This document shows, in pieces, positions 12,517-58,527 of a stretch of DNA of 64,000 bases; position 1 is the stretch's first letter; every line of letters starts with the position of its first letter. Source of the DNA: Parietichytrium sp. I65-24A (taxonomy: Eukaryota; Sar; Bigyra; Thraustochytrida; Thraustochytriidae); assembly GCA_012862575.1 (NCBI GenBank), contig BLSF01000006.1, forward strand, positions 558,001 through 622,000. Direction: 5' to 3'. The position numbers were made by a program, and so were the translations under genes. Below the pieces are notes generated by a model. It did not search any database and had not been told where the DNA came from. It saw nothing but the letters and a program-made list of their open reading frames with translations.

Positions 12517-14265
12517 TTATTCCAGAACTGCGTAGGTGAATGCACCAGTGACGGAGTCACCGACAAGGACGGTGCTGTCTGCAGCAACGGTGATGGTGGT
12601 GCTTGCGTTGAAGTCAACTCCGTACTCTCCCATGCAGTTTTGTGGAGCAAGAAAGCGAGTCTGACTTGGGGAGAACGCGATCGTGCCAAACAGGGCTGCG
12701 GAGAATGCAGCTGCAACAACGATGGTGAGGACCCATCCAAGTACAACCTTTCCAAAGAGCTTGAAGTTGATTGCTCCGCGACGGCCCTCAGTCAAACCTA
12801 CTCCAATAGATGCACCGACCATGGTCTGTGTGGTGGAGACAGGAAGACCAAAGATGGAAGCGATGACGACGACAAAGGCGGTTGCGAGCTCGATAGATGC
12901 TCCGCGAGATGGGGTGATCTTGATAAGCTTTACACCGAGAGCGCGAATGATCTTGTGGCCGTAGACGAGAAGACCAACGGTGAGCCCAGCACCTCCGAGG
13001 ATGAGAACCCAAAACTGAACCGGCTGCTTGTATTCCACCTTGGCGCCGTCCTTGAGGTAGTAAGTTCCATTCTCATACCTCTCGTATCCGATTGTGGCAC
13101 CGTTGTTGTCATAGATAGAAACGACAGAGGAGAGCGGTCCGATAGCATTTGCAACATCGTTGGCGCCATGTGCGAAGGACATCATGCAAGCGGTGAAGAT
13201 CTGAAGGTAGCCAAAAGCGCGCTCGGTGCGGTACTCGAACTTCTCAGCAGACTCGTGAATCTTTGCGACACGCTCGTTGCGGATGGTGTGGATCTGATCA
13301 TTGCGTCCCTTGGCCCAGCCAGTGAGGCCGTGCTTCTTGTCGCTCTCTACAGCAACTGCCTCGACATCCTCTTCGTTTTCCTCAATCTTTGCTTCGATGT
13401 CCTGGCTGTCCTTCTCGGTGAGGTTTTCGAGCCTCTTGCGAATGATAGGAACAGCTGTTAACTGGAGAATGACCGCAAGAACAGCAGCGACTCCAGCTGC
13501 GACTCCAAGAGAAGCAAGATTACCGCCGAGTTTAGAGCTCCACTTGTAGGCTTTGCCACCCTTGATGATGACGAACCAGGTGTTGATGGTCACCACAACG
13601 AAGACGAGGATTGGGAAAAAGCGGAGAGCGCGGTCGAAAGAGTTCTCAGCCCGAAGAATGAACTTGCGCACCAAGCTGAAGAAAATTGCCGAGCTCACGC
13701 CAGCAAGAGCTGGGGTTCCAACCCACGAGAGAACGATGCTGGTAAGCTTGGTCCACTGAACCCTGTCGACACCCATGCAGATGGCAAATCCGAGAAGCGC
13801 TCCGACGATGCTGTGGGTAGTGGAGACTGGAAACTCCTTGACGGTCGCAAAGGTGAGCCAGAATGCCACTCCGATGAGAGCGACAAACATACCAGTCATG
13901 AGCAACTCTGGCTCCTGTTCAAACTCGCTCTGCTTAATAATTCCTCCCTTGATGGTCTCAGTGACGGAGGCTCCAAGGAGAGCAGCTCCAGCAAACTCGA
14001 AAATGCCGGCAATGACGACAGCCTGAAGAAGAGTGAGGGATCCAGAACCGACGGAGGTGGCGAAACTGTTTGCTACATCGTTGGCTCCAATACCTGCTGC
14101 AGCGTAGAATCCGACGACAATTGCTGCAATGTACATCCATCTCAAATCGTTGTAGAAAGGAAAGTCAATAGCTTCCTCGCTGTCTCCGAAAGGAAGAACA
14201 TCCTTGTTGATTCCAACAAGGGGGTTCCACGGATGGTACGCGATGGCATCTTCGACGACAGACAT
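12517..14265 (-). CDS. PiT/PHO4-family inorganic phosphate transporter, copy A
   Basis: This intronless gene encodes 582 residues. PiT proteins import inorganic phosphate across the plasma membrane together with Na+ or H+; the coupling ion cannot be read here. The diagnostic GANDVAN signature occurs twice, near the N-terminus (IGANDVANSFATSVGSG) and in the C-terminal half (HGANDVANAIGPL). This reflects the family's internal duplication. About ten hydrophobic spans are visible, with a long charged hydrophilic loop (EENEEDVEAVAVESDKKHG) between the two halves. It is a tandem twin of copy B and differs mainly in the first residues (SVVEDA) and in residues ~377-415, between hydrophobic spans after the second signature. 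The upstream DNA is unlike that of copy B, so the two may be regulated differently. Confidence 0.96.
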   Translation of the reverse strand: MSVVEDAIAYHPWNPLVGINKDVLPFGDSEEAIDFPFYNDLRWMYIAAIVVGFYAAAGIGANDVANSFATSVGSGSLTLLQAVVIAGIFEFAGAALLGASVTETIKGGIIKQSEFEQEPELLMTGMFVALIGVAFWLTFATVKEFPVSTTHSIVGALLGFAICMGVDRVQWTKLTSIVLSWVGTPALAGVSSAIFFSLVRKFILRAENSFDRALRFFPILVFVVVTINTWFVIIKGGKAYKWSSKLGGNLASLGVAAGVAAVLAVILQLTAVPIIRKRLENLTEKDSQDIEAKIEENEEDVEAVAVESDKKHGLTGWAKGRNDQIHTIRNERVAKIHESAEKFEYRTERAFGYLQIFTACMMSFAHGANDVANAIGPLSSVVSIYDNNGATIGYERYENGTYYLKDGAKVEYKQPVQFWVLILGGAGLTVGLLVYGHKIIRALGVKLIKITPSRGASIELATAFVVVIASIFGLPVSTTQTMVGASIGVGLTEGRRGAINFKLFGKVVLGWVLTIVVAAAFSAALFGTIAFSPSQTRFLAPQNCMGEYGVDFNASTTITVAADSTVLVGDSVTGAFTYAVLE

Positions 14266-15198: not shown

Positions 15199-16950
15199 TT
15201 ATTCCAGAACTGCGTAGGTGAATGCACCAGTGACGGAGTCACCGACAAGGACGGTGCTGTCTGCAGCAACGGTGATGGTGGTGCTTGCGTTGAAGTCAAC
15301 TCCGTACTCTCCCATGCAGTTTTGTGGAGCAAGAAAGCGAGTCTGACTTGGGGAGAACGCGATCGTGCCAAACAGGGCTGCGGAGAATGCAGCTGCAACA
15401 ACGATGGTGAGGACCCATCCAAGTACAACCTTTCCAAAGAGCTTGAAGTTGATTGCTCCGCGACGGCCCTCAGTCAAACCTACTCCAATAGATGCACCGA
15501 CCATGGTCTGTGTGGTGGAGATAGGAAGACCCAAGATGGAAGCAATGACGACGACGAAGGCGGTTGCGAGCTCGATAGATGCTCCGCGAGATGGGGTGAT
15601 CTTGATAAGCTTTACACCGAGAGCGCGAATGATCTTGTGGCCGTAGACGAGAAGACCAACGGTGAGCCCAGCACCTCCGAGGATGAGAACCCAGTACTGA
15701 ACCGGCTGCTTGTAGTCCTGCTTGTCACCATCAGAGTCAAGGATGTAAGTTCCGTTCGCAAATCTTTGGGAGCCGATGGTTGCACCATTGTTGTCATAGA
15801 TAGAGACAACTGCAGAGAGCGGTCCGATAGCATTTGCAACATCGTTGGCGCCGTGTGCGAAGGACATCATGCAAGCGGTGAAGATCTGAAGGTAGCCAAA
15901 AGCGCGCTCGGTGCGGTACTCGAACTTCTCAGCAGACTCGTGAATCTTTGCGACACGCTCGTTGCGGATGTTGTGGATCTGATCATTGCGTCCCTTGGCC
16001 CAGCCAGTGAGGCCGTGCTTCTTGTCGCTCTCTACAGCAACTGCCTCGACATCCTCTTCGTTTTCCTCAATCTTTGCTTCGATGTCCTGGCTGTCCTTCT
16101 CGGTGAGGTTTTCGAGCCTCTTGCGAATGATAGGAACAGCTGTGAACTGGAGAATGACCGCAAGAACAGCAGCGACTCCAGCTGCGACTCCAAGAGAAGC
16201 AAGATTACCGCCGAGTTTAGAGCTCCACTTGTAGGCTTTGCCACCCTTGATGATGACGAACCAGGTGTTGATGGTCACCACAACGAAGACGAGGATTGGG
16301 AAAAAGCGGAGAGCGCGGTCGAAAGAGTTCTCAGCCCGAAGAATGAACTTGCGCACCAAGCTGAAGAAAATTGCCGAGCTCACGCCAGCAAGAGCTGGGG
16401 TTCCAACCCACGAGAGAACGATGCTGGTAAGCTTGGTCCACTGAACCCTGTCGACACCCATGCAGATGGCAAATCCGAGAAGCGCTCCGACGATGCTGTG
16501 GGTAGTGGAGACTGGAAACTCCTTGACGGTCGCAAAGGTGAGCCAGAATGCCACTCCGATGAGAGCGACAAACATACCAGTCATGAGCAACTCTGGCTCC
16601 TGTTCAAACTCGCTCTGCTTAATAATTCCTCCCTTGATGGTCTCAGTGACGGAGGCTCCAAGGAGAGCAGCTCCAGCAAACTCGAAAATGCCGGCAATGA
16701 CGACAGCCTGAAGAAGAGTGAGGGATCCAGAACCGACGGAGGTGGCGAAACTGTTTGCTACATCGTTGGCTCCAATACCTGCTGCAGCGTAGAATCCGAT
16801 GACAATTGCTGCAATGTACATCCATCTCAAATCGTTGTAGAAAGGAAAGTCAATAGCTTCCTCGCTGTCTCCGAATGGAAGAACATCCTTGTTGATTCCA
16901 ACAAGGGGGTTCCACGGATGGTACGCGATCGGGTCCTGATTGGCAGACAT
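15199..16950 (-). CDS. PiT/PHO4-family inorganic phosphate transporter, copy B
   Basis: This intronless gene encodes 583 residues, one more than copy A. Both GANDVAN signatures are intact. At the DNA level it matches copy A almost base for base: I see roughly a dozen substitutions outside one patch. The exception is 15705-15820, where about 116 bp encoding a loop differ heavily (copy B has GSQRFANGTYILDSDGDKQD where copy A has GYERYENGTYYLKDGAKVE). The N-terminus also differs (SANQDP). The pattern suggests recent duplication or gene conversion with the loop and promoter left out. Different promoters on near-identical proteins could give high- and low-phosphate versions of one activity; that is inference. 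Confidence 0.96.
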   Translation of the reverse strand: MSANQDPIAYHPWNPLVGINKDVLPFGDSEEAIDFPFYNDLRWMYIAAIVIGFYAAAGIGANDVANSFATSVGSGSLTLLQAVVIAGIFEFAGAALLGASVTETIKGGIIKQSEFEQEPELLMTGMFVALIGVAFWLTFATVKEFPVSTTHSIVGALLGFAICMGVDRVQWTKLTSIVLSWVGTPALAGVSSAIFFSLVRKFILRAENSFDRALRFFPILVFVVVTINTWFVIIKGGKAYKWSSKLGGNLASLGVAAGVAAVLAVILQFTAVPIIRKRLENLTEKDSQDIEAKIEENEEDVEAVAVESDKKHGLTGWAKGRNDQIHNIRNERVAKIHESAEKFEYRTERAFGYLQIFTACMMSFAHGANDVANAIGPLSAVVSIYDNNGATIGSQRFANGTYILDSDGDKQDYKQPVQYWVLILGGAGLTVGLLVYGHKIIRALGVKLIKITPSRGASIELATAFVVVIASILGLPISTTQTMVGASIGVGLTEGRRGAINFKLFGKVVLGWVLTIVVAAAFSAALFGTIAFSPSQTRFLAPQNCMGEYGVDFNASTTITVAADSTVLVGDSVTGAFTYAVLE

Positions 16951-26325: not shown

Positions 26326-27494
26326 ATGGACTTCGCTCCGCGCGACAAGGAGAATGCAGTGAAAAGCAACGCTACAGGGATGAAGCTGGCCAAGATGGGC
26401 GGCGCCAAGAGAGTCCCGACAGTGAAAACAAAGTACACCGTAAACGGCACTTTCCCGAAGGGACGCGGAGGAGCGCAGAAGGACGAGCAGTCGGAAGACT
26501 CGCGGCCGCGAACCAGCGGAGAGGAAACTTCTTCATCAACAAACAAACAGGCAGGAAAAAGCGCACGGCCAAGAGAGAGTCTGATGCCAATAAATCCATT
26601 CGCTGACTCGGCAACCCCTCACTGGACACTTGAAGACTTTGACATTGGCAAGAAACTTGGAAGTGGGAAATTCGGGAACGTATACCTTGCACGAGAGCGC
26701 CGCAGCGGATTCATTGTCGCTGTCAAAGTTTTGCACAAGTTCCAGCTCACCAAATCAAATGTTGAGCATCAGCTTCGGCGCGAGATTGAGATCCAAGCGC
26801 ATCTTCGGCATAGAAACGTGCTGCGGCTATACACGTACTTTTGGGATGACAAACGCATCTTTCTCGTCCTAGAGTACGCGATGCACGGCGAGCTCTACAA
26901 AGAACTTACAAAGCGCGGGAGATTTTCCGAAGACAAGGCTGCGGACTACATCTATCAGCTTACAAAGGCATTGATCTATTGTCATGCAAAGCACGTTTTA
27001 CACCGAGACATCAAACCTGAAAACCTTCTGGTGGACTATGCCGGCCAAATTAAAATCGCAGACTTTGGATGGTCAGTCCATGCTCCCAGCTCCAAGCGCG
27101 AGACACTGTGTGGGACACTAGGTAAGTATTCTGTGCTATTGCATGGGGAATTCTGTTTGCACATTTCTAACAAATCGATGTTATTCCAGATTATCTTCCG
27201 CCAGAAATCGTGCTAAGAGAACAGTACGACCATCAGTGCGACATTTGGAGTCTTGGGGTTCTTGCATACGAATTTCTCTGCGGAAAACCACCTTTTGAGG
27301 CTGAGGGCCACTCTGAGACTTACCGCAAAATATTGAAAGTTGACCTTGCCTTCCCTTCTCATGTCTCACCGGAGGCTAGAGATCTGATTTCGAAGCTCCT
27401 TAAAAGGTTGCCAGAAAACAGATTACCCCTCGAAAAGGTTTTGCAGCACCCTTGGATTTTGAGCAGGGTAGCAGCTGCACGGGCGGAAAAATAA
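26326..27494 (+). CDS. Aurora-family serine/threonine kinase 1
   Basis: Exons 26326-27121 and 27190-27494 flank a 68-bp intron (GTAAGT donor, CTAAC branch-like site) and encode 366 residues. Aurora kinases drive centrosome maturation, spindle assembly and cytokinesis. The leader starts [10 protein letters not shown], with a KEN box at 8-10 (a destruction signal read by the anaphase-promoting complex), and includes a [10 protein letters not shown] motif at 84-93. The kinase domain has G-loop GSGKFG, Lys134, catalytic HRD Asp228, DFG Asp247 and the Aurora hallmark [11 protein letters not shown]. Activation-loop Thr260 lies in ETLCGTL-DYLPPE. The intron splits the Asp266 codon. The C-lobe ends with HPWIL. 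Its closest relative here is Aurora 4, which shares the leader. It is the first of four Aurora genes in this stretch and converges on Aurora 2. Confidence 0.95.
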
Positions 27495-27782: not shown

Positions 27783-28766
27783 CTAAGCTGTGATCCAGGG
27801 GTGCTCTTGAATCTGCTCTAAAGACATCCTTTCGTGCGGATTTCGCCTCAAAAGCTTTACAATAAAGTCATGCGCAAGCTCCGATATGTAATCCGGGAAC
27901 TCGAGCTGTACGGCAATGATTCGATTATAAGTCTCAACCTGGCTCGGATGCTCAAATGGCGGACTTCCCGTAAGCAGTTCGTAAGTCAAGACGCCAAGAG
28001 CCCAGTTGTCCGTGAATTCGTTGTACTGCTTGCCCTCCAACATTTCCGGAGGAATGTAGTCTACATGATGCTAATCGTTAGTTTTTTGTGCTGCTCCTAC
28101 ATCTACTCTCCTCCTCCGAACTTCTTCTTTCAAGAAGGTCAACGTACCTCGGGTTCCACAGAACGTTTTCCGGTTCGAGCTAGGGGCATGCACAGAGGAT
28201 CCAAAGTCCGCGAGCTTGAGATCGCCTTTATGATCCAGCAACAGATTCTCGGGCTTGATATCGCGGTGTATCACGTTTTTTTGGTGGCAGTACAATAAAG
28301 CGCTAGCTAGTTGGCAAATATACTTTTTCGTATCTTTCTCACCAAGGCGCTGCCTTTCCTTCAAGAGATCATACATGCTCCCGCGCCAAGCAATCTCCAA
28401 AATCAAATATATTCTGCTATCGTCGAAAAAGAACCCATAAAGCTGTAAAATGTTAGGATGATCCAGCCGAGATTGAATCTCGACCTCGCGCCGAAGTTGG
28501 TGGCACATATTCGATTTTTCCAGGTTGGCTTTGTGCAAGACCTTCAGTGCACATGAAAACCGACTCTGCTTCTCTTTCGCATGATACACTGCACCGTGCT
28601 GTCCTTCCCCAATCTTTTTACCGATCAAAAAGTCACTCAACTCCCAGCACTTGAGCTCCTCGTGCTTTGCGGCAGCAACTTTCTTCGCCACTCCCCTTTC
28701 TTCCGTCGCGTCTCGAGCGTTCGCCACGTTGCCCCTATTTTCCTCGCTCACCCGTGGCGAAAACAT
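27783..28766 (-). CDS. Aurora-family serine/threonine kinase 2
   Basis: Exons 28766-28148 and 28060-27783 flank an 87-bp intron (donor GTACGT, branch-like CTAAC) and encode 298 residues from the first in-frame ATG. The leader is short (about 40 residues) and lacks both the KEN box and the RESLMP motif of Aurora 1 and 4. Catalytic residues are present: GEGQHG loop, Lys75, Asp169 in [10 protein letters not shown], Asp187 of DFG and Thr201 in KTFCGT. The normally invariant Trp after DFG is Ser ([11 protein letters not shown]), and the usual GTLDY reads GTRDY. The intron sits at the same place and phase as in Aurora 1, splitting the Asp codon of DY-PPE. This supports descent from a common intron-bearing ancestor. 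It should be active but looks specialised. Confidence 0.93.
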
Positions 28767-30164: not shown

Positions 30165-31112
30165 ATGAGCTCCGTGCGATTCTCGGCTGCGTCGCAGCCT
30201 GCGAACCAGGAAAATGCTGGCGGCGCAGGAAACGCCAACCCGGCGAGGCCGGCGAAAGGCAAGGAGCTCTGCCTGGCGGACTTTGGCGTGGGCAGGCAGC
30301 TCGGAAAGGGCAAGTTTGGGTTTGTGCATCTAGCCAAGGAAAAAAAGTCAGGCAAGAAGGTGGCGCTCAAGATCATGTGGAAAGCGGATCTGGAAGAAGA
30401 AGGGTACATCGAGCAGGTGAAGCGGGAAATCGAGATCCACTCGCGTATCAGGCACCGCAACATCGTACGGTTGTACACCTACTTTAGCGATGCGCAAAGG
30501 GTCTACCTTGTGCTCGAGTACGTGCCCAACGGCAACGTGTGTACAGAGATGAATAAATACCCTGCAGGGAGACTCCCGGAAGCCAGGGCTTCACAGATCA
30601 TGCGCGAGCTGATAAGCGCGATTGCGCTGTGTCACAAGATCGGAGTCGTGCACAGAGACATAAAGCCAGAAAACATTCTCATCGCAGCGGACGGATCCAT
30701 ACGGCTGGCTGACTTTGGGTGGAGCGTGAGCAATAAAAATGCCCATGAAAAAATGAAACGACTCACTCTGTGCGGAACCCTCGATTACATCCCACCTGAG
30801 ATGACGAGGAAGGAGCAGTACGATGAACGTGTCGATATCTGGATGGCGGGTTGCGTCGCAGCGGAAATGCTTGTTGGGATCGCCCCTTTCTATAACGACG
30901 ACTGGAAAACTACAGAGAAGAATATACAACTGGGCGAATGGAAGCTTCCCGCGGATTGCTCAAGCGAGGCAAGTGGGTTCGTTTCCAAATTTTTGGTGAA
31001 AGATCCTGCGGGAAGAATTCATCCGATTAAATTGGCCCTTTTTCATCCTTGGATCACTATGCACGCACCAAAAGAAGACATGGATAGGTTGATGAAGAAA
31101 CCGGAGCCTTAG
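30165..31112 (+). CDS. Aurora-family serine/threonine kinase 3, intronless and divergent
   Basis: A single exon encodes 315 residues. The short leader contains QEN where Aurora 1 and 4 have KEN. The kinase domain is complete: GKGKFG loop, Lys69, Asp165 in [10 protein letters not shown], Asp183 of DFGWSV and Thr201 in LTLCGTLDYIPPEM. The activation segment carries an altered, slightly longer stretch (SNKNAHEKMKR) in place of the usual HAPSS-RR. The C-lobe departs from the family (DIWMAGCVAAEMLVGIAPFYNDD instead of a [13 protein letters not shown]-type sequence), though it ends in the normal HPWI. It is the only Aurora gene here without an intron, so it may be a retrocopy that diverged or an old intron loss. 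It is divergent from Aurora 2 and convergent with the RIB43A gene. Confidence 0.92.
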   Translation: MSSVRFSAASQPANQENAGGAGNANPARPAKGKELCLADFGVGRQLGKGKFGFVHLAKEKKSGKKVALKIMWKADLEEEGYIEQVKREIEIHSRIRHRNIVRLYTYFSDAQRVYLVLEYVPNGNVCTEMNKYPAGRLPEARASQIMRELISAIALCHKIGVVHRDIKPENILIAADGSIRLADFGWSVSNKNAHEKMKRLTLCGTLDYIPPEMTRKEQYDERVDIWMAGCVAAEMLVGIAPFYNDDWKTTEKNIQLGEWKLPADCSSEASGFVSKFLVKDPAGRIHPIKLALFHPWITMHAPKEDMDRLMKKPEP

Positions 31113-34462: not shown

Positions 34463-35940
34463 TTAAAGAATAGACGCGTCTGAAGAGGACTTGGTCTCTG
34501 GTCTGCTCGACTCTTTGCTCACCTGGGTGCAGTGGCGTCGAATCCATCGATGCCTTGGAACGTATTCCAGCGGCAATCGGCTCTCCGGTTTGCGCTGAAG
34601 AAGACGGGTTATGAAATCTCGAGCTTCGGGTGATACAAACTGGGGGAACTCGTAAGAAACAGAGACAATGGCGCAAAATGTAGCTTTTTGGCCCTCCTGC
34701 TCAAACGGCGGCTTCCCCACCAGGAATTCATACGTCAGCACACCAACCGACCAAATGTCGGCGCGATGATCATGCTCCTCGCGACACACCATTTCAGGGG
34801 GAAGCTGAGTAAATTTGAAGGTTAGAATATAATGAATGGTATGCATGTCAAACCATTTCCTCCTTATAACTTACATACTGCCGTTCCTCGAGTCACAGGA
34901 CGAGAATGAAATGTTGGAGAATAAAGGCGCGAACGCATATTCGTAGAGACACATACGTTAGAATCTGCACCAATGAAACTCAGTGTGGCATGATCATTCT
35001 TCAACTCACATCAAGTGTTCCGCACATGGTGGCGCGCCTCGAGCTTGGGGCATGAACTGACCAGCCAAAGTCAGCAATTTTTACAGTGCCATCCATACCT
35101 AGCAAGAGATTTTCTGGTTTGATATCCCGATGAATAATGTGTTTGGTGTGGCAGTATGAGAGCGCAGAAGCGATCTGCTTGATATAACCTGCAGCTCGTT
35201 TCTCCCCAAATCTACCGCGTCTGCCTACAGATGCGCCAAACGTTCACTCAGCCCCAAGGTTAGCAGAATTCTTGCGCATGATCGAGTAGGCTCCACACAA
35301 ACTTACGAAGCTCCTTGTATAGTTCACCATAGACTGCATACTCGAGCACAAGGTAGATGCGCTTTTCATCCCAAAAGTACTGGTATAAGCGGAGGACGTT
35401 GATATGTCGCAGGTGGGCTTGAATCTCGATCTCACGGCGAAGCTGGTGCTCTACGTTGTTCCGCAGCAATTGTTGCTTGCGCAGGATTTTTATTGCAACG
35501 ACAAACTTGCTTTTCTTCTCACGGGCAAGATAGACGGCGCCAAACTTCCCTCGGCCAAGCTTACAGCCGACGTCAAAATTGCTGAGATTCCACAGTTTGC
35601 TCGCGTCTGAGGTGAAAGGATTTACCGGCATCAAGCTTTCCCGTCTCGCGTTGTTGTTGTTGTTGCTACTGGAGCTTGGGTTCTTTTGTTTGGCATTAGT
35701 TTTGAAACTCGGGATTCGAACTGCGTTTCCCATACGAGACAGCTTGACTTTGGTCTTCGCAGAGCACAAAGTTCACACGCAAGGAAAGCTGGGGTTGTGA
35801 GTATTCGCTGTATCGACGAAATCCCATCCACATTCCAATCCCCATCCCATCCCATCTGAATCACTCACCTTCGACTGCTGCCCCGTCCCCGAGGCATTTT
35901 CCCCGGTCTCATTTTCTTTCCCAGCCACGTTGAAATCCAT
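34463..35940 (-). CDS. Aurora-family serine/threonine kinase 4, with a predicted 3-nt microexon
   Basis: I read five exons: 35940-35869, 35754-35307, 35224-35010, 34877-34875 and 34804-34463, giving 359 residues. Introns are 114, 82, 132 and 70 bp. The leader parallels Aurora 1: [10 protein letters not shown] (KEN box at 8-10, same position), then [15 protein letters not shown] and [11 protein letters not shown]. The kinase domain has the GRGKFG loop, Lys113 in [26 protein letters not shown] and activation-loop Thr239 in ATMCGTLD. Exon 3 ends exactly after Asp245 and the last exon opens with LPPEM, so a direct join would delete the invariant Tyr. A CAG-TAT-GTAAGT context between them supplies it. 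The C-terminal tail after RHRWIRR is Ser/Lys-rich. Confidence 0.9.
34875..34877 (-). other. predicted 3-nucleotide microexon (Tyr246 of Aurora 4)
   Basis: On the sense strand TAT is preceded by CAG and followed by GTAAGT, the commonest donor in this window. Including it restores LDYLPPE, as in Aurora 1 and nearly all Aurora kinases, and keeps the frame. Skipping it leaves LDLPPE and a 205-bp intron, longer than any other here. It needs transcript evidence. Confidence 0.7.
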
Positions 35941-38180: not shown

Positions 38181-41099
38181 TCAAGTGCTCTTCTTGCTCG
38201 AAGGGAAGATGGAACCGGTCCTGTTTTCTGGGCCGATCTGGAACATCAGAGCCGGGAAGAGAAATAGAGCGAAGATCAAGCTGAGGACAATCGTGACGAA
38301 TATGAACGTTCCGAAGAGGACAAAGAATACAATCTTCGGAAAGAACAGGAAAAAGCATGCTCCGGCAGTTGAGACTGCTCCGGACACGACTGAAACTCCC
38401 ACATGACTGATGGAACCAGACATTCGCCCGATCCGATCAGTTTTGGAGGGCGTGCTTCGGCTCTCCGCTATGTAACCTTCGGCGAGATGAGCCACGAAAT
38501 CCACGCTTAAACCAGGTGACATGGTCAAATTAATACTCTCGAGCATCCCTAGTTTCTTTCCCGCAATTACGATATAACCCATGACGCACATGACAATAAG
38601 AGCGATGCAGAGCGTGGCAATGGTGGACACGATAAAGTTTCCAGAGAATAGTGTCAATACCACAAATGCCAAAAGAAGGGACATTGAAATTCCAGAAAAG
38701 GCCTCTTTCACCAACTGCTTTGCAACGTAAAAGTTATGGCCCCACCTTGGAATAGCGAGAATGCTTGCTTGCTTTGTCGCAACCTGCTTGCACTGTGGAA
38801 GCTCCTCGTGATACAATCTCTGGAAGGCCTCCTCCCACATCTCCATAAAGGCGATTCCCTCCTCGTAAGGTACATTGTACGCCATCGTCGTCTCTATACT
38901 CAGCTTGGAGAGCACGGGAACGCCAGACAGATAGATGAGCATACTCCGGTAGGGCACACCAGCTGTGCTGGAGAGGAATTTCAGCAAAAGTCCATCCCAG
39001 ACAGTCTTGTTCCCAAGTGCCGTGTTCCAAAGGCCCTCGCCGGCAATCTCTTCCTCTACAGAACTCGTTACAGCTTCGTAAAATGCTTGTGGCCAGCAGC
39101 TGAGTTTGTTTTTCCCGGGTGCGAGAGTCTTCAACGTGCTATTCGGAGAATCCATGTAAGCGCATATATCCCGCAAACAGTTCACCAAACTCTGTGCGTC
39201 AAAGTTCTCGTCATACACTGGCTTGCCTAGATCAGAAGGGATTGTCGGGTCTGTGTCATTCCGGTCAATAGGATGGTCATGGAGCCCATGAACGACGGTC
39301 ATTGTGATCGCGTAAGGACTGGCTACAAGCGCCGAGGTGAAATACTCTTGAACCGCAGGATAGAATTCTGTCAATGCAGTTCCTTTCGGAAAGAGGTAGG
39401 GCGGCTCGGGGTCCACTTCTATCTGGGAGGCCAAGTATGCAAACACTGCGATAATGACTGCGAAGACGATCAAGACCAGGTGTCGATACTTTTGCACTGC
39501 TGGGCCATGTTTCTCTTCAAAATATACAACCAGCGGGTTTTTTGATTCAACATGCTCTGCATCATCACTCGCCTTCTCATTATTTTCCTGGTTGGCAGCC
39601 CGTGCGGGCGCGACTTCGGCGTTATCCGAACAGGATGTACACCAGCACTTGCCCTTGCGAATATACCGATGGTACATGCTCATTGCCGCTGGGAAAAACG
39701 TACATACTGCAATAAAATTGCAGATCACCAGCGCTCCAGCCCATTTGCCAAAAAGACTGATGCCAGGAAATAGTGAGCGCGCTGTAGCAAAAAAGCTGGT
39801 CATGGTCGTGAGACTGGTTACTAACATGGCGCCACCTGCCCTCTTCATTGTCCACTGCATTCGGGTGACTGCGTTCTTCTTGGCAGTTTCAGCGTGCGCA
39901 GAGTGGTCCCAGGTATCAGCGAAAACGAAGACATCATCAGCCCCAACTCCGAGAATTATAAAGACGCTTAGAAAGTTGAAAACTCCAAAGTAGGTCTGGC
40001 GAAATATGGCCCAGTAGATCAGGTACGCTGGGGCAAAAGAGAGAAGAATGACACCCATTCCCATACATGCGACCCACAAGGACCGTTTTGTCGCCGCCAT
40101 GGAGACAAACACAAACACAAAGCTGAAAAGCGCCCAGGAAACGTCTGCAGGAACCTGTGCAGTCAGCACGGCATTTCGCATCCCAGACATGTCGTACCAG
40201 AACGTTATTCCTTGCTCTGCGAGACTTTCGTGTGCCTCCTCAAAGGTCTCCAAGTAGTGATTTAGCACCAACTCTTCAAATGCGCTGTCCTGGCTCTCAT
40301 AATCATCATCGGTGTTGTTGTAGCCAGGGAGGGGAGCACCAAGGTAAAATATCGACTGAATACCCATGACTTCTCCAATGCCTTCTGAGAATGTGAGATT
40401 GCTCCGCTGCGCACCGAAGTTTCCTGCTGCACTTGTATAAAACGCAGGGGCTTGAAGCTCCTTTATGACCCAGTATTCTTCCAGCATGTTCTGAACGTGA
40501 CTTTCTTCAAGCACCTTCTCAGAGAGCTCGCAGTCGTTACCCGTGGGACACTTTGTCAGGTAGCTTAATTGGGTTATTGGTTCCTTGCAGTCGGGATAGT
40601 TGTCGGTGTCTGCATTCAGGGATTCCACTTTGTCGTACTCACCGTCGTTCATGGCACTGAGGGCCTCGGCGCCCCAATCCAATTGGCAGTATTCCCTGTA
40701 GGCCGACTTGGCCCGGAAGCTCTTCTCAAACTCTAAGATTGCTTGCAATCTGTCCACGTCGTAGATACTTCCTTCTCCTTCGGAAATGTAAAGCAACGTG
40801 ATGCGCAGCGACGTGTGCGACGGGTTCTGCGAATTTACCCTCGCCAGCTCAAGCTTCGGGGCCATGGAAGTCTCCGAAGCTTGTTTGACGACCAAGCTCA
40901 TCGCATCGTCTCTCTCTTTGAACCGGTTGTCCAGCAGGTACAGAGGCGCGTCGACTTGGTAATTGAAGAAATCCGTCCCGAGCGCTTTCATCAAGACCAT
41001 GCAGATTAGAATCAGTCCAAAGTACGCAGCACAGTTGCAGCAAAAGGCCCTGCACGGCCTGGACGCCACCGTGGCCGCGTATCGATCGATGGCGGACAT
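38181..41099 (-). CDS. Patched/Dispatched-like RND membrane protein with sterol-sensing-type domain
   Basis: The 972-residue intronless protein has the RND transporter layout. One hydrophobic span lies near residue 30, followed by a large extracytosolic domain. A membrane block (~325-490) contains GVGADDVFVFADTWDHS, the GxxxD/DD proton-relay motif of transmembrane helix 4. A second large domain has a matching membrane block (~820-960), with SPGLSVDFVAHLAEGY as the counterpart in helix 10. The first block resembles a sterol-sensing domain. Patched, Dispatched and NPC1 relatives move sterols or lipid-linked cargo using ion gradients. Protists without Hedgehog often carry several such proteins of unknown cargo. 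A short cysteine cluster (GKCWCTSCSDN) follows the first block. It is divergent from SEC63. Confidence 0.9.
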   Translation of the reverse strand: MSAIDRYAATVASRPCRAFCCNCAAYFGLILICMVLMKALGTDFFNYQVDAPLYLLDNRFKERDDAMSLVVKQASETSMAPKLELARVNSQNPSHTSLRITLLYISEGEGSIYDVDRLQAILEFEKSFRAKSAYREYCQLDWGAEALSAMNDGEYDKVESLNADTDNYPDCKEPITQLSYLTKCPTGNDCELSEKVLEESHVQNMLEEYWVIKELQAPAFYTSAAGNFGAQRSNLTFSEGIGEVMGIQSIFYLGAPLPGYNNTDDDYESQDSAFEELVLNHYLETFEEAHESLAEQGITFWYDMSGMRNAVLTAQVPADVSWALFSFVFVFVSMAATKRSLWVACMGMGVILLSFAPAYLIYWAIFRQTYFGVFNFLSVFIILGVGADDVFVFADTWDHSAHAETAKKNAVTRMQWTMKRAGGAMLVTSLTTMTSFFATARSLFPGISLFGKWAGALVICNFIAVCTFFPAAMSMYHRYIRKGKCWCTSCSDNAEVAPARAANQENNEKASDDAEHVESKNPLVVYFEEKHGPAVQKYRHLVLIVFAVIIAVFAYLASQIEVDPEPPYLFPKGTALTEFYPAVQEYFTSALVASPYAITMTVVHGLHDHPIDRNDTDPTIPSDLGKPVYDENFDAQSLVNCLRDICAYMDSPNSTLKTLAPGKNKLSCWPQAFYEAVTSSVEEEIAGEGLWNTALGNKTVWDGLLLKFLSSTAGVPYRSMLIYLSGVPVLSKLSIETTMAYNVPYEEGIAFMEMWEEAFQRLYHEELPQCKQVATKQASILAIPRWGHNFYVAKQLVKEAFSGISMSLLLAFVVLTLFSGNFIVSTIATLCIALIVMCVMGYIVIAGKKLGMLESINLTMSPGLSVDFVAHLAEGYIAESRSTPSKTDRIGRMSGSISHVGVSVVSGAVSTAGACFFLFFPKIVFFVLFGTFIFVTIVLSLIFALFLFPALMFQIGPENRTGSIFPSSKKST

Positions 41100-50903: not shown

Positions 50904-51663
50904 CGCCGGAGTACTTTTTTTGATTTTGTTAATAGTCATAATTTTATAATCATCTAATTTTTATTGACGAGCGTCGAGTCTTATTCCATGTGCTCTCATA
51001 TAATAATTTACTCTTCGATGCGCTTGGAAGGGTCGTGCCTCGAGAGCCTGTGCCTTTGAACCAAGCGCAAGTAAACCCATGTTTCCACAGCGAGAACGAA
51101 ACAAAAATTATTTCACTTCAGCGAACGAACATTCACGTATGGCGTGCCTCATGCTCCATGCCTTGTATCATTCGCACTGCGATATATTTCTTTTCACCTA
51201 GCCAGTTACCTGTTACGTGTCATAAACAAACCGTCCCTTAAAATTCCGGGAATGGAACTACCGGTACAAGACCCGGCTCAAAGCGGTAGTTACACAAAGT
51301 TGGTTGTCAGGGAATAGATGAGTTAGGAAAATCAACCAAACCAAAAATAAACCAAACCAAACTAAACCAAACCAATCTGAGAGCGAAGAGTGAAGAGTGA
51401 AGAGTGACAGAAAACAATTGCAGAAAGTTAGAACCTCGAACCAACTGCAATCCCACAACACAGGCGTCTCGCGGAAGGGACGCACCACGCGCGTGGCAAA
51501 AGTCAGGCGCTGCTCAGAGCCTGCCAGGGTGACGCGAACGTACACTTGTTCAAGTTCTCAGACGTCCCAACAAGAAGTTGTGGGGCTGGAGGGAAAGAAG
51601 AGCAAGCTGCTCTCTGGAAGCGAAAGGTCGAGTGGACGAAAGAGAGGAAGAAGCAGAGTGAAA
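50904..51663. other. intergenic, promoter and leader of ASPM
   Basis: AACCAAACC reiterations lie at 51331-51376. The ASPM reading frame is open from 51397 to the ATG at 51664 but has no ATG. This stretch is Ser/Arg/Lys-rich and could be an untranslated leader or, less likely, coding from a non-AUG start. Confidence 0.5.
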
Positions 51664-54600
51664 ATGAACAGCACAGCGTTCGACATTTGCTGGTCGCCGA
51701 CGGCCACGGAGGAGAAGGACCTGATGGAAGAACTGGCTGGGTCCTCCGGAGCAGTGGGCGCTGCTCACTTGCAGGTGCGACTTGGAGATTTGCAGAGTCA
51801 AGGGATCTTGGAATTCGGGGAAGTTGAACCGTTTGTCCCTGGCTCGGACACTGACGTTCAGCCTAGCTATCGCGGTGTCGTGGAGCTTGTTAACGATGAC
51901 CCCGAGAGTTCGGTCGACGTCGGTCTGGACCGCTTCTCCACCAAAAACGGTTTCTTCATCGAAAATGGGGATTCGTCGTGGACTGTTCCGGCAAGTGGAA
52001 GTGTATCCCTTGCGATCTTGTGGAGACCGGAAACTCCTGGTGGCGTCAGGCAAAGCCTGACCTTCTCCTTTGTTAGCCCAAACATTCGCCGAAGGGTTCG
52101 CGTGGGAGCCTATATCTCTGGAAATGTCAAAGCGATCGAACAACCACAGCGCAAAGCAGGTCCCAAAGGCCCTAAGAAAACTTTGCTTCGAAGCGTAGGA
52201 GACAGCCCTTCACCAAGCAAGTTGCGCTCTGCAGCACGAAGCTCAAGCACCCCTTCCCCACTGAAACAACAGAGCGTATCTGGGCGCGTTGGGGGAGGAA
52301 TTCGGGAACGACTCGAAAGGCGTGCCGCAAATATAAACTCTTCCAACGAAGAGAATGCGACCTCAGTTGGTAACACCAAGCCTACATCGAGAACACAACA
52401 ACTCAAAGGAGGGAGCAAAGCCTTGCGAGAACGCTCCCCAAACCAGGCAATCGAGTCTGCGTCAAACGCTCTCGCGGCGAAACGGCCACTCTTAAAGAAG
52501 GCGATCGCGGAGAAACCGCAAGAAGACCGTCGTCCGCTGCCGCCACGAGACGCTGTACCTCCGCCCAAACCAAAACCCACCTCCTCCGCAGCTGCTCCAA
52601 GTCGGACTTTACCTGCATCTCTGAAGCTGCGACAGGCAGCGCACAGCAAAGATGATGCAATCATGAAAGCGACCCGGAAGGAGCTAAAGATGCGTCGTGT
52701 ACTCTTTGATGAGAAGTGGATGGAGAAACAAGAGAAAGGCTTTGCTGCTTGGCTCAACTACCTTGTTGAGCCAGACACCGACTCGAACGCGGAGAGTGCA
52801 GAGACGGCTGTACCCGATGGAGGCAGGATTGTGGCAAATCCTTTTGCCGTTCTCGCTCAGAAGCAGCGACAGGCTGCTATTCAGAGGGTATCCTATACAA
52901 TTTACCATTCAACGGAGGTGGAAAACGTTGCCTTCAACGTTGATCGCGAAATTGCGAGTGGTGGTATTGCGATCAGAACGGACAAAAACATCTTCAAAGA
53001 CCTTGGTCTGCGCAGGCTTGTGCTGGATCTCCTTTGTAGTTACAACGCTCCATGGCTTAGACTTGGTCTTGAAATTGTATTGGGGATGGATGTCCCTGCC
53101 CACCATCGCTCCATGCGCAAACTCGCCTCAAACTACTTCTTGGGGGATCCAGAGTTGGACGAAACTTTCAAAGACACAAAGAAGGGGATATTCGACGAGA
53201 ACCCAGAGTACAAGAGCGAGCTTCGTCGTCGCACGCTCCGAAGATTCCTTATGCTCGTGCTCTTTTTGGACAGAGCAAAGCAAGCAAGCGTCATCGATCA
53301 CCCAAGTTGCCTGTTCAGCTTGTCCTCCAACATCAAGTCATCCAACGAGATGATTATTAACTTTGCTAAGGAGTTTCTCTCTGGCGAAGGCAATGTCATT
53401 CGCCATCTACAACACTCTTGCTCATACGTTGTTACTCACGCGCAGACCGTTTTGGATGAGTTCGACTTTAAAGTACAGACCCTTGCTGTGGATCTTCGCG
53501 ACGGGGTGCGTATCACAAGGGCAGTCGAGCTCCTGACAAACAACAAGGATCGTACTCTGTCGCAAAAGCTTCGAGTTCCGGCTGTCTCTCGACTTCAGAA
53601 ATTACATAATGCTGGAGTTGCTTTGCAAGAGCTTGAGCAGAATGGCATCGACCTTGGAACAGCCGAAGCTCCTTCTCAGCGAAGTTTCAACTCAACTTCT
53701 TCGCGAGACACAATTACCGCCAAAGATATCGTCGACGGCAACCGACGGAAAACGCTCGGACTGCTGTGGAAGATGATTACGAAGTGGAGGCTAGCTCTTA
53801 TTCTGCCACTGGACACTGTTCGCGACGAAACCCAAAAGATTATGCGTCTACATGGCCGCACTGCAACTGCCATAATGGCTGCTTCTGCGAATCAGGCCGC
53901 CCAACAAAAGCGGGACTCTTCCTCAAAAGAGTGCCCGGAACAAGACAATTCCGAAGCCGCCGTTGCGTCCGAGGTGTTGCTAAAGTGGTGCCAGGCGGTC
54001 TGCGCTCACCACGGTGTTCGTGTGAGTAACTTCACCACGTCAATGGCTTCCGGTCGCGCTCTGTGCCTTCTCATTCATCATTATCACCCCAAATTGCTCG
54101 AGCGAAGCAATATCTCTGCGACTGCGGTGGATATGGCTCACGAACAGAGCCCAGAATCTGTAGAGGGCGACCTGGACTGGATTCCCTTTGAGCTTCAAAA
54201 TTTGGCAAGGAACAGCTTTAAAAAAGCGATGTCCAATGAACAAGCGAATTTCCGTCTTGCAAATGAGTGTGCCAACGCGTTAGGCTGCGTTCCGGTGCTA
54301 TTGCCAGAGTTTGACTCGGAAAACGTTCCGGAAGAAAAGCTCATGCTTTTGTTTTTGGCTTACCTGTGTTCTCGCTTGCTTGTGTCAAGAGACCAGATTG
54401 CAGCAGCCATTAAGATTCAGCGCGCATGGCTTTCGAAGAAAAGAGCAGAGTACTTGCGCAAGATTGGCCAGCAGGGCGATTTTGGTGCGCGGAAGATTCA
54501 AGCGATATACCGCGCTCACTGTGCCCGACGCAACATACGGAAAATTCGGTGCGCGAGAGAAGTACAGAGGTTTTATCGTGGGTACGCGTCACGAATTTCC

Positions 54601-57600
54601 TTGGCCAGACAGCGTCAAGCCATCGTAAAAATTCAGGCGATGTATAGGTCTCGTTCAAAGCACCAACTTTATGAGCTTTTGAGGGATATGATTATCGTGG
54701 TCCAGAGTGTTGTTCGAAGGCATCAAGCTCGCAAATTCGCTGAACGGCTAAAGCTCGAAGGTCTCGCTGCCACGAAAATTCAATCAGTCTTTCGGAGTAA
54801 GCATTCTAGAAGAGCATATCGTGCACAGATCACTGCCTTTACCCATTTGCAAGCTTCTATTCGCGCAGCTCGCGAACGTAGACTCTTTGTGACGAAGCGG
54901 AAGTCTGCAGTTCAAATACAATCACTTCTTCGCGGCCGCACGATCTACTCTAGGCAAGGATTTCACAGAGTTCGCCAAAGCGTCTTGGTTCTGCAATCAT
55001 TTTTTAGAAATGTGCAAGACCGTCGCGACATGGAAAGGAGATGTAGAGCGGCTACAAAGATTCAGTCTTGCTACAGAGGCCACGCAATTCGATTCCACTA
55101 TCACATCATTCAGGATGCGGCACTGATCATTCAAGCCTCTCTACGTTCATGGCGAGAAGTGAAGGCTCTCAAGACCGCGAAGGAGGCAGTGTTGAAGCTA
55201 CAGGCAGCTGCAAGAATGCACAAGGAACGGCGCGCTTACTTAGGCAGCATCGCCTGCATTTGCAAGCTCCAATCTTGGGCAAGATCCCGCAGGGCTACCA
55301 AACAATTTCAACAGACGAAAACAGCTGCATCCAAAATCCAGGCTATGGCTCGCCAGATTGCGTCACGACGAAGCTACATTGATTCGAGGAGACATGTTGT
55401 GCGGTTGCAGTCAGCTATTCGCAGGTCATTGGCACAGAAACAGCTTTCTTCCGCAAGGAAGTCTGCAGTTCAGATTCAATCGAGGTTCAGAGCATTTCAA
55501 AACCAGGCAAAATATGAGGCACAGCGTACTGCAATCATACGTGCACAGTCTTGTGCTCGCCGTTGGCGTGCGATATGCTTCAAGCGTTCGGCGACTAAAA
55601 ACTGCATTCTGATTCAAGCGACTTGGCGAGCGTACAGGGAGAAAGCCAGGTACCAGCTTGACTACTCTCGTGTTTGCACAATTCAAGCCATGTTTCGCAG
55701 GGCAATCGCTCGTGCCGAATTTGAAGCCAGTCGTCAAGCTGCAACACGCCTTCAGTCCCTTTACCGCACAAGGAAAGCTTCTCTGGCGTACGCTAAGGTC
55801 TTGAATTGTGTGATGAAGATCCAGTCCGTGTGGAAGGGTTATTCGGCCCGTTGTGCATATTCTACTTCTCGTATCAGAATTTTGAGAATCCAAGCATTTG
55901 TTCGGCAAGCGCTGCTGAAAAAACGCTACAACATCCAGCGGAAACAGATCGCACTGATTCAAGCTCAGATGCGAGGCAAGCTTGCCAGAAACAAATTTCA
56001 ATCGGACTTGAGCAAGGTGCAGATGATCCAAAAGCTCTGGCGCGGTCGTGTGGCGAGGGTGCAGTGCAAAGCACAGGTGATGGGCATGTGCAAAGTGCAA
56101 GCTCTCATCCGCAAATTTATTCAGAGAGTTCGTTATGCGCAATATCGCTCGGCGGTTGTTCGTCTGCAATCAATTGCGCGGGCTCGAACTCAGCAACAAA
56201 AGTATTCTCACACGCTCGAAAAGATAAAGTTGGTACAGTCTCTGGTGCGTGCTCGACAAGCATCCGCTCTGAAATGCAGGGTTGTATCTGCCGTCACAAC
56301 GCTGCAAACAAGATTGAGGGCTAGAACATGCGCTCGTGAGTTTAAACGGAGCAAGGCAAGAGTCGTCAAGGTTCAGTCGATTGCACGAACCTGGAAAGCG
56401 AAGACCAGTTATAAGCAAGAGAGAACTCAGGTCAAACTTGTGCAAGCGTTTTCGAAGCGGGTCGTATACGAGCAGCGCTACAGGAGGCTGCGAAGCTCAA
56501 TTGTTGCGCTTCAGAGCAAATTTCGCGCCAGAGCTTGCCAGAAAACTTTTCAGAGCAGAATTGCACAGATCATCAAGTGCCAAAGCGTCGCAAGGCAGTG
56601 GCGAGCGGTCCGCGCATTCGAGCATGCCAAGAGCGCCGCCGTGGCTATTCAGTCGCAGATTCGCCGGTCTTTATTGCAGAATGCCTTTGCCAAGAATAGA
56701 AAAAGCTGCATTCTTATTCAGAGCACATATCGAGCTTGCGTCGAGCGGAAATTGTACGTCCAAAAAATGCGCGCAGTTGTCGTTTTGCAAGCTGCTGCAC
56801 GAGGCTGGAGTCAGCGTGTCACCTATCGCAAGGCAGTGATGGCGAGCACGCTGCTACAGAGCTGGAGCAGAATGATGATTGCGAGAATATCCCTTGTCTT
56901 CGCGCGCGATGGTGCAACTAAAATCCAAGCCACTGTTCGTGGCTTTGCTGTGCGACAAGTGTTCCTGCAAAAGAGACATTGTGTTGTAGCGTTACAGAGC
57001 CTGTATCGTGGTGCTAAAGCGCGAAAAGCTCTTGAGGACTTTAAAGGGGCTATTGTTTGTTTGCAATCGCACATGCGCAGGCGTGAAGCCGCCCGGCACT
57101 TCCAAGACCGCAAAAACCAACAGCTTTTTGAGAATGCCATTGTGCGTTTACAATCTCACATGCGAAGACGTCAAGGTGCAAATCGCGCTCAGGCGCGCAG
57201 AAACGAGAAGGCCTTTGAGGCTGCGATTGTGCGACTTCAGTCTCACGCACGGAGGCGCGAGGCTGCGAAACAGTTCCAGGAGACCAAGTGCCAGATTGTA
57301 AAGCTTCAATCCTGCATACGCAGGCTTCGGGCCGTGCGTATGCTCAGCATCTCTCGCAGCTCGGCTGTTTCGATTCAGAAGATATCCAGAGGCTGGCGAA
57401 TTCGCAGGCTGGCGGAGAAGAAGAGGTGTGCTTGCATCCGGCTGCAAGCACTTGCAAGGCAAATTTCGTGCATGAACGCCTTTTCTAAGACTATGCGACG
57501 GGTCAAAGTTGCACAGGCTGCAGTCCGCGGAATGCTTGCCCGAAGAAGATACGCCTCGGAGCTTGTGTGCGTCTGCAAAGTACAGGCATTTGCGCGAAAA

Positions 57601-58527
57601 TTGGTGGCATTGAATCGGTATAGCATTGCACTTTCGGGGATAACTTCGGTTCAAGCTCTTTATCGTGGGCAGGCAGTTCGCAAAGACCTCGAAGTTCAAA
57701 GACGTGCTGCAATAAAGATTCAATGGTTTGTGAGGTCGTATTGTTTGGAGGCGCTTCGTCATCGTGACCTCATCTGCAGAATTCAAGCCGTTGTGCGTGG
57801 CTATCAAACTCGGAAAATGCGGCCAAAGGCAGTGGTCCGTGCGCATCGGCGATTGATGGTTGCAACTCAAAATGCACAGGAGGACATGACCCTTGGACAC
57901 CGTACTCGCTCGGCGCTTGCATGGTTGCTAAAGAGCAAAGACCTAGCTCATATTTTGAAAGCTTGTATTACTTTGCAAGCTACCACAGCCGCTTCGCGCG
58001 AGTGCTGCGAAGAGTTTCTTGAGACTGACGCAAGTGACGTGCTCTTCGCTTTGATTCGCTCGTGTAATCGCAGCGAGCCTCACGTTCGCGTTCTGGAGGT
58101 TGCGCTGACAGTTTTGGTGCAGGTTGCAGAGCACGACGTGAAGGTGTCGTATCAACGCGTTTTCGCAGCCGAGAGCCAATCTGTTGGCGCGTTGGTCGAT
58201 CTTCTGCAGATGTTTCGCGACAAGAGCAAGATTTCATCGCTGGCTTTGATTTTGTTAGAGTTCTTCTGTTCTGATATGCGCAGAGCCATGACCTACGTGC
58301 TTTACGACAGAGATCTGCTGAAAAGGCTTCGCTCTATTGAGCAGGTTTTGCAGCGCAAATGCGAAGTCTTGCGCCAGACTCGTCCACCGGCTGCACGAGC
58401 CTCCAAGTCAGTCTCGTTCAAAGAGTCCTCAAAGGGTGCCTCCAAACAGCCCCGTTCTCGCGAGCTCACAGAGAGACAACAATACAAGAGGCTCAAGACT
58501 CTTCTCATCGCAGTTGAGGATCTCTGA
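51664..58527 (+). CDS. ASPM: ASPM/Asp, abnormal spindle protein homologue
   Basis: A single uninterrupted frame encodes 2,287 residues. ASPM/Asp focuses microtubule minus ends at spindle poles with katanin and calmodulin. Domains run in the canonical order. An ASH (ASPM-SPD2-Hydin) domain lies at ~40-160 (FGEVEPFVPG, VELVNDDPESSVDVGL, WRPETPGGVRQSLTF), and a Pro/Ser/Lys-rich linker to ~340. Two calponin-homology domains follow: FAKEFLSGEGNVIRHL with LDEFDFKVQTLAVDLRDGVR, and VLLKWCQAVCAHHGVRVSNF with ASGRALCLLIHHYHPKLL. About fifty IQ calmodulin-binding motifs run from ~915 to ~2045. A helical armadillo-like C-terminus closes the protein (ARSALAWLLKSKDL-type, VALTVLVQVAEHDV). Human ASPM is longer and has more IQ repeats. 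An intronless gene of this size is striking. Confidence 0.96.
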   Translation: MNSTAFDICWSPTATEEKDLMEELAGSSGAVGAAHLQVRLGDLQSQGILEFGEVEPFVPGSDTDVQPSYRGVVELVNDDPESSVDVGLDRFSTKNGFFIENGDSSWTVPASGSVSLAILWRPETPGGVRQSLTFSFVSPNIRRRVRVGAYISGNVKAIEQPQRKAGPKGPKKTLLRSVGDSPSPSKLRSAARSSSTPSPLKQQSVSGRVGGGIRERLERRAANINSSNEENATSVGNTKPTSRTQQLKGGSKALRERSPNQAIESASNALAAKRPLLKKAIAEKPQEDRRPLPPRDAVPPPKPKPTSSAAAPSRTLPASLKLRQAAHSKDDAIMKATRKELKMRRVLFDEKWMEKQEKGFAAWLNYLVEPDTDSNAESAETAVPDGGRIVANPFAVLAQKQRQAAIQRVSYTIYHSTEVENVAFNVDREIASGGIAIRTDKNIFKDLGLRRLVLDLLCSYNAPWLRLGLEIVLGMDVPAHHRSMRKLASNYFLGDPELDETFKDTKKGIFDENPEYKSELRRRTLRRFLMLVLFLDRAKQASVIDHPSCLFSLSSNIKSSNEMIINFAKEFLSGEGNVIRHLQHSCSYVVTHAQTVLDEFDFKVQTLAVDLRDGVRITRAVELLTNNKDRTLSQKLRVPAVSRLQKLHNAGVALQELEQNGIDLGTAEAPSQRSFNSTSSRDTITAKDIVDGNRRKTLGLLWKMITKWRLALILPLDTVRDETQKIMRLHGRTATAIMAASANQAAQQKRDSSSKECPEQDNSEAAVASEVLLKWCQAVCAHHGVRVSNFTTSMASGRALCLLIHHYHPKLLERSNISATAVDMAHEQSPESVEGDLDWIPFELQNLARNSFKKAMSNEQANFRLANECANALGCVPVLLPEFDSENVPEEKLMLLFLAYLCSRLLVSRDQIAAAIKIQRAWLSKKRAEYLRKIGQQGDFGARKIQAIYRAHCARRNIRKIRCAREVQRFYRGYASRISLARQRQAIVKIQAMYRSRSKHQLYELLRDMIIVVQSVVRRHQARKFAERLKLEGLAATKIQSVFRSKHSRRAYRAQITAFTHLQASIRAARERRLFVTKRKSAVQIQSLLRGRTIYSRQGFHRVRQSVLVLQSFFRNVQDRRDMERRCRAATKIQSCYRGHAIRFHYHIIQDAALIIQASLRSWREVKALKTAKEAVLKLQAAARMHKERRAYLGSIACICKLQSWARSRRATKQFQQTKTAASKIQAMARQIASRRSYIDSRRHVVRLQSAIRRSLAQKQLSSARKSAVQIQSRFRAFQNQAKYEAQRTAIIRAQSCARRWRAICFKRSATKNCILIQATWRAYREKARYQLDYSRVCTIQAMFRRAIARAEFEASRQAATRLQSLYRTRKASLAYAKVLNCVMKIQSVWKGYSARCAYSTSRIRILRIQAFVRQALLKKRYNIQRKQIALIQAQMRGKLARNKFQSDLSKVQMIQKLWRGRVARVQCKAQVMGMCKVQALIRKFIQRVRYAQYRSAVVRLQSIARARTQQQKYSHTLEKIKLVQSLVRARQASALKCRVVSAVTTLQTRLRARTCAREFKRSKARVVKVQSIARTWKAKTSYKQERTQVKLVQAFSKRVVYEQRYRRLRSSIVALQSKFRARACQKTFQSRIAQIIKCQSVARQWRAVRAFEHAKSAAVAIQSQIRRSLLQNAFAKNRKSCILIQSTYRACVERKLYVQKMRAVVVLQAAARGWSQRVTYRKAVMASTLLQSWSRMMIARISLVFARDGATKIQATVRGFAVRQVFLQKRHCVVALQSLYRGAKARKALEDFKGAIVCLQSHMRRREAARHFQDRKNQQLFENAIVRLQSHMRRRQGANRAQARRNEKAFEAAIVRLQSHARRREAAKQFQETKCQIVKLQSCIRRLRAVRMLSISRSSAVSIQKISRGWRIRRLAEKKRCACIRLQALARQISCMNAFSKTMRRVKVAQAAVRGMLARRRYASELVCVCKVQAFARKLVALNRYSIALSGITSVQALYRGQAVRKDLEVQRRAAIKIQWFVRSYCLEALRHRDLICRIQAVVRGYQTRKMRPKAVVRAHRRLMVATQNAQEDMTLGHRTRSALAWLLKSKDLAHILKACITLQATTAASRECCEEFLETDASDVLFALIRSCNRSEPHVRVLEVALTVLVQVAEHDVKVSYQRVFAAESQSVGALVDLLQMFRDKSKISSLALILLEFFCSDMRRAMTYVLYDRDLLKRLRSIEQVLQRKCEVLRQTRPPAARASKSVSFKESSKGASKQPRSRELTERQQYKRLKTLLIAVEDL

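Follow-up and report, generated by a model that had tools for sequence, protein, structure and literature searches.

Exons of 3 nt and even of 1 nt are already known. In animals, micro-exon 8 of Drosophila homothorax and the microexons of Drosophila troponin T and rodent NCAM are reported as single in-frame exons of 3 nt which are alternatively spliced (PMC7392893, PMC8042270). In plants, the 1-nt exons of APC11 and VPS55 are needed for the normal protein and were missed by annotation; they have been demonstrated in RNA and are conserved across species (PMC4674806, PMC8831610). The APC11 exon is described as constitutive and stepwise, intron-defined splicing was proposed for it (PMC4674806), and conserved GTRAGT donors are reported for VPS55 (PMC8831610). 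Before APC11, as of 2015, the lower size limit on record stood at 6 nt for constitutive and at 3 nt for alternative exons (PMC4674806). A further 1-nt exon, in the fungal CYP621A genes, was inferred from a conserved motif with an intronless homologue as the guide, using 20 orthologues and SRA reads (PMC12940212). Finally, spliceosomal twin introns (stwintrons) are defined by a splice signal that is interrupted by another intron, and their neighbouring introns are perhaps removed in steps (PMC6616335).

The locus described here, the kinase gene Aurora 4, is a predicted additional case, whose exon size of 3 nt appears to lie near the smallest exons known and to be easily missed by automatic annotation. 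As in the animal genes it would be one in-frame 3-nt exon; in contrast to these, it encodes a near-invariant kinase position and nothing suggests regulated skipping. With the plant exons it shares that the normal protein would depend on it, but skipping of 1 nt breaks the frame whereas skipping of 3 nt keeps it, and the Aurora 4 exon is a prediction from genome sequence. In analogy to CYP621A, an intronless homologue (Aurora 3) serves as guide, although the comparison is drawn among paralogues of one genome. The two introns of Aurora 4 may be removed in steps like those of stwintrons; here, however, no splice signal is interrupted and an exon lies between the introns. Among the matches listed in the microexon literature, no title or abstract opening mentioned a microexon in an Aurora gene.

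The window, i.e. the whole stretch of 64,000 nucleotides that was analyzed, comprises positions 558001-622000 of contig C6 of a 42.5-Mb genome in 172 contigs, whose introns and genes mark it as eukaryotic. Four Aurora-type kinase genes lie between 26.3 and 35.9 kb of the window in alternating orientation, Aurora 1 and 3 on the plus strand and Aurora 2 and 4 on the minus strand. Aurora 4 starts with the ATG of exon 1 (35869-35940; this and all following Aurora 4 features on the minus strand), whose MDF..KEN sequence is like that of Aurora 1. Intron 1 (35755-35868, 114 nt) is supported by this N-terminal similarity and its acceptor GAAG is less certain. It is followed by exon 2 with the kinase N-lobe (35307-35754), intron 2 (35225-35306, 82 nt) and exon 3 (35010-35224), which carries the HRDIKPEN and DFG motifs and runs through CGTLD. 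The gene model discussed below recovers only 35307-35733 of exon 2 and does not recover exon 1. The 3' end of exon 3 is the GAT of Asp245 at 35010, followed by a GTGAGT donor from 35009, and the last exon (34463-34804, LPPEM to the stop) starts at 34804 as CAG|CTTCCCCCTGAAATG with the codons CTT CCC CCT GAA after ACTCAG.

The gap between exon 3 and the last exon is 205 nt long and contains CAG|TAT|GTAAGT at 34880-34869, as verified by an exact sequence check. The TAT (34877-34875), the predicted microexon coding for Tyr246, is in phase 0 on both sides and divides the gap into 132 + 3 + 70 nt, namely intron 3a (34878-35009, GTGAGT...GGCAG), the exon and intron 3b (34805-34874, GTAAGT...ACTCAG). 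With TAT the protein comprises 359 aa and reads CGTLDYLPPEM; a direct join of exon 3 to the last exon yields CGTLDLPPEM, whereby the tyrosine of the P+1 loop is lost and the reading frame is kept. These results reproduce exactly what the preliminary description had claimed, namely a clean end of exon 3 after Asp245 with a last exon starting at LPPEM in the same phase, the deletion of Tyr by a direct join, and the division of the gap into 132 and 70 bp. Its further claim that the other three Auroras keep the Tyr of D-Y-L-P-P-E holds as well (3/3), the leucine being kept in 1/3: the sequence is DYLPPE in Aurora 1 and DYIPPE in Auroras 2 and 3. The predicted exon TAT is internal, lies with its 3 nt within the 30 nt allowed for a microexon, and has complete flanking AG and GT. 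Skipping it is in frame and the frame alone does not demand it; the support from reading frame and protein homology comes from the restored motif and a gain of 12.6 bits in the Pkinase model.

Tyr246 is the P+1-loop tyrosine directly before the [AP]PE motif. In Ser/Thr kinases this residue is reported as Tyr in 73%, Phe in 15% and Trp in 11%, and the Y204F exchange in PKA raised the Km (PMC5430542); PKA Tyr204 is also referred to in a review (PMC3415842). A kinase lacking the P+1 Tyr would be expected to be badly impaired. Inclusion of Tyr246 raised the score of the Aurora 4 protein against Pfam PF00069 (Pkinase) from 224.2 to 236.8 bits, against PF07714 from 139.8 to 144.2 bits (+4.4) and against the best Aurora match in the PDB from 356.2 to 365.4 bits (+9.2). 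Aurora 4 is assigned to the Auroras because its whole kinase domain is most similar to Aurora A/B: the best 60 of 2771 PDB matches all belong to Aurora A or B, in part under the name serine/threonine-protein kinase 6 or 12-A. The catalytic motifs and the T-loop are intact, with a Thr before CGTLDYxPPE that is taken to be the regulatory one. A comparison of Aurora 4 with Aurora 1 over 337 codons shows saturation at synonymous sites (p 0.88), which precludes a ratio, and a dN of 0.34; by this comparison the coding sequence of Aurora 4 looks constrained.

For the enumeration of alternative splicing solutions all GT/GC donors and AG acceptors in 35100-34760 were combined, with introns of at least 30 nt, the frame kept to the C-terminus and, in two-intron solutions, a middle exon of at most 60 nt. 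The target motif was CGTx[DE][YFW]x[AP]PE. None of the 31 single-intron in-frame solutions restored an aromatic residue before xPPE, so that another acceptor restoring Tyr, which the preliminary description had named as a refuting outcome, was looked for and not found among them. Within the 778 two-intron in-frame solutions the motif was restored once, by the 3-nt exon, which also obtained the top splice score of the set (28.8), ahead of an 8-nt exon (24.75) and a 12-nt exon (22.9). Evidently, splice score and protein motif agree on one solution, the 3-nt exon.

The splice matrices were derived, leaving out Aurora 4, from a 277-kb sample of the same genome, comprising the window, a 10-kb stretch from the same fixed position of each of 20 contigs and four short kinase loci. 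This sample yielded 42 introns for training, all of them predicted, some doubtful and one without a GT donor. By these matrices the microexon donor GTAAGT scores 10.59 bits, which is both the median and the 95th percentile of the modelled introns, 23/42 of which use this commonest donor. The acceptor scores 4.59 bits, just below the lower quartile of 4.62. As a branch site, intron 3a offers at best the weak candidate GTGAC (34892-34896, A 15 nt from the intron end; 3.29, just below the 10th percentile of 3.31), while intron 3b has the strong candidate CTAAC (34821-34825, A 17 nt from the intron end; 7.62, just above the 90th percentile of 7.54), both being sequence matches only. The description of acceptor and donor as ideal is consequently borne out for the donor and has to be withdrawn for the acceptor. 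Likewise, the 205-bp intron, previously called abnormally long, is indeed long and yet has precedents: the modelled introns have a median length of 82.5 nt (n = 42), and 4/42 reach at least 205 nt, all four with poor donors or doubtful models; among introns with a strict GTRRGT donor it is 1/28. Of the two lengths of 132 and 70 bp, both said to be normal here, the 132 nt of intron 3a lie on the long side (8/42 with at least 132 nt).

How often such a signal arises by chance was estimated by dinucleotide-shuffling the 205-nt span 20,000 times. Some AG|NNN|GT occurred in 7,933 and AG|TAY|GT in 494 of these shuffles, but a 3-nt candidate of any codon with at least the observed sum of donor and acceptor scores was obtained in only 4, and one with TAY or any aromatic codon in 0/20,000. 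In 554,184 genomic letters (277 kb, both strands) this score was reached by three candidates of any codon, two of them with TAY, namely the microexon site itself and one near 39,706 on the minus strand within a 972-aa ORF (38181-41099).

Furthermore, a hidden Markov gene model of our own, trained iteratively on the long ORFs of the genome and working without protein comparison, predicts the 3-nt exon in Aurora 4. After retraining without Aurora 4 the exon was favoured by 2.5 nats at the default setting. It was part of the best path in 11/18 parameter settings; the direct join was preferred in 7/18, those with long or rare introns, so that the preference depends on the intron length and frequency assumed. 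When the interior of the gap was shuffled with its first 6 and last 25 bases kept, the model called some exon in 34/1000, a 3-nt exon in 2/1000 and a TAT/TAC exon in 0/1000 cases. Splice and branch weights were initially set by hand, and those of the branch site kept their starting values throughout. An earlier, cruder model had yielded 20 introns, some without AG, and had left Auroras 2 and 4 uncalled; the stricter model was designed after this miss, with the microexon site already known. We therefore treat the gene model as supporting, not decisive, evidence. The modelled genes are intron-poor (45 introns in 82 genes), and no other exon below 10 nt borders the 45 introns in the 277 kb, the next smallest having 17 nt; there is hence no sign of microexon splicing elsewhere among the modelled genes of this sample.

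The simplest rival takes the 205 nt as one intron and CAG|TAT|GTAAGT as a coincidence, leaving Aurora 4 as a weakened or dead kinase without the Tyr. The direct join keeps the frame and outscores all other single-intron solutions (13.6 bits), and the modelled introns of at least equal length as well as the gene-model settings that prefer it speak in its favour. It would nevertheless cost the 12.6 bits in Pkinase and remove a tyrosine that all three paralogues retain, in a gene whose remaining catalytic motifs are intact and whose coding sequence looks constrained, and it would leave a perfect donor, a CAG and just the missing codon to a chance that none of the shuffles realized at the observed score; we hold it to be very improbable. 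A cassette switch, in which the gene yields both forms and toggles between active and inactive kinase, in the same frame, by including or skipping the Tyr, would fit the 3-nt length, and the weak 3' signals of intron 3a would favour some skipping; in Drosophila, 283/411 (68.9%) of the microexons in exon-microexon-exon arrangement are reported as alternative (PMC8042270). Against it stand the few introns of the modelled genes and the lack of any sign of a regulated-splicing lifestyle, and we judge such a switch to be very improbable. Were it true, one and the same pre-mRNA could also yield an Aurora that is inactive and possibly dominant-negative, and the weak 3a acceptor would tune inclusion.

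A different tiny exon, for example the 8-nt one at 34964-34957 or a 12-nt one at 34886-34875, or a stwintron would be a further reading. The two exons hold the second and third score of the two-intron solutions, but the former adds a long insert before LPPE, the latter inserts ERQ, and neither restores D-Y-x-P-P-E. A stwintron by its definition needs an interrupted signal (PMC6616335), whereas none of the four splice sites is interrupted in the genome, the branch elements being predicted. This group of readings is extremely unlikely. We conclude that TAT 34877-34875 is, with high probability, a real 3-nt exon present in most or all of the mature mRNA. This prediction is supported by the only motif-restoring solution among those enumerated, its top score, the homology-free gene model and the intact Aurora kinase. 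That the exon is real and at the same time supplies the P+1-loop Tyr246 of a working Aurora-type kinase is, taken jointly, highly probable as well. As a separate observation, the 8-nt element just mentioned is a second exon-like element within the 205-nt gap, CAG|ATTCTAAC|GTATGT (34964-34957, minus strand), which contains CTAAC and has the second-best two-intron score with a broken kinase motif.

The 3-nt exon would most plausibly be spliced by intron definition, the two introns being removed one after the other, because 3 nt cannot hold the acceptor and donor spliceosomal assemblies at once; the short modelled introns suit intron definition. Intron 3b would probably leave first, since its signals (GTAAGT, CTAAC) are stronger than those of intron 3a (GTGAGT, GTGAC), whereupon intron 3a, which is longer and weaker, would find its acceptor exon in CAG|TATCTTCCC. 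GAT-TAT-CTT would result whichever intron leaves first. For a 9-nt exon in potato, removal in two steps with the second intron first is cited (in PMC4674806). As the skip product is in frame and one Tyr short, no frameshift would mark such errors for removal.

The paralogues allow the origin of the microexon to be approached: within the same 10 kb, two of them carry an intron at a distance of two bases, and the third lacks one. Aurora 1 (26326-27494, plus strand; exons 26326-27121 and 27190-27494) has a 68-nt phase-1 intron at G^AT TAT, and Aurora 2 (27783-28766, minus strand; exons 28766-28148 and 28060-27783) an 87-nt phase-1 intron at G^AC TAC, i.e. at a common site inside the Asp codon. 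Aurora 3 (30165-31112, plus strand) is intronless with a continuous DYIPPE. Aurora 4 shares 63% identity with Aurora 1 (337 residues), 50% with Aurora 2 (293) and 42% with Aurora 3 (306), and in a genome search with its last exon Auroras 4, 1 and 2 rank first to third and Aurora 3 seventh among the 100 matches listed. The boundaries GAT^TAT and TAT^CTT of Aurora 4 lie two and five bases downstream of the Aurora 1/2 site. From the shared phase-1 intron at G^AY we infer that in Aurora 4 a boundary of the Aurora 1/2 type may have shifted by two bases and a second intron may have been gained three bases further on; in either order these events would trap one codon between two introns.

Two possible origins were considered and rejected. 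Introner origin would predict further copies, but introns 3a and 3b match only themselves in the 42.5 Mb, in a search that skipped very common words. As to a local duplication, the tail of exon 3 shares a direct repeat of 20 nt (75%) with the region of the microexon, which is not significant: 35/200 shuffles reached the score of an ungapped comparison between exon 3 and the 205-nt span. The likeness of introns 3a and 3b was reached in 69/200 shuffles, and the Aurora 1 intron is no more like 3a or 3b than shuffled sequence (167/200 and 150/200). In viral contigs 2 and 45 stretches matched a search pattern and in bacterial/archaeal contigs 103, with no Aurora relative confirmed among them; the bacterial/archaeal and the 45-stretch viral searches used two short peptide patterns each and are weak.

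If real, the microexon would be a 3-nt coding exon at a kinase position that is reported as aromatic in about 99% of Ser/Thr kinases (PMC5430542). An annotation joining the flanking exons would lose the residue without a frame error, and the gene would resemble a dead kinase. Aurora 4 would furthermore be a natural test of how the spliceosome of an intron-poor genome handles an exon too short for exon recognition.

Some additional observations concern the cluster and its surroundings. Auroras 1 and 4 share the N-terminus MDF....KEN (35940-35869 on the minus strand in Aurora 4, from 26326 onward on the plus strand in Aurora 1), which in our view resembles a KEN-box degron. Elsewhere in the genome, a 5583-aa open frame (contig C66, with repeated matches) and a 1965-aa frame (contig C68) matched a PfaA polyketide-type model below the cut-off. 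The PUFA-synthase model gave 13 genome matches, none above the cut-off, and the same search gave matches in 11/14 control genomes. Within the window, a 2376-aa ORF at 51397-58527 (plus strand) combines a calponin-homology domain with a high sum of IQ-motif scores, its ASH match staying below the cut-off; it looks like an ASPM (abnormal spindle) homologue, which would be another spindle-type protein near the Aurora cluster. Two tandem ORFs of PHO4 phosphate transporters lie on the minus strand at 12517-14265 and 15199-16950 (582 and 583 aa, 389.5 and 391.1 bits).
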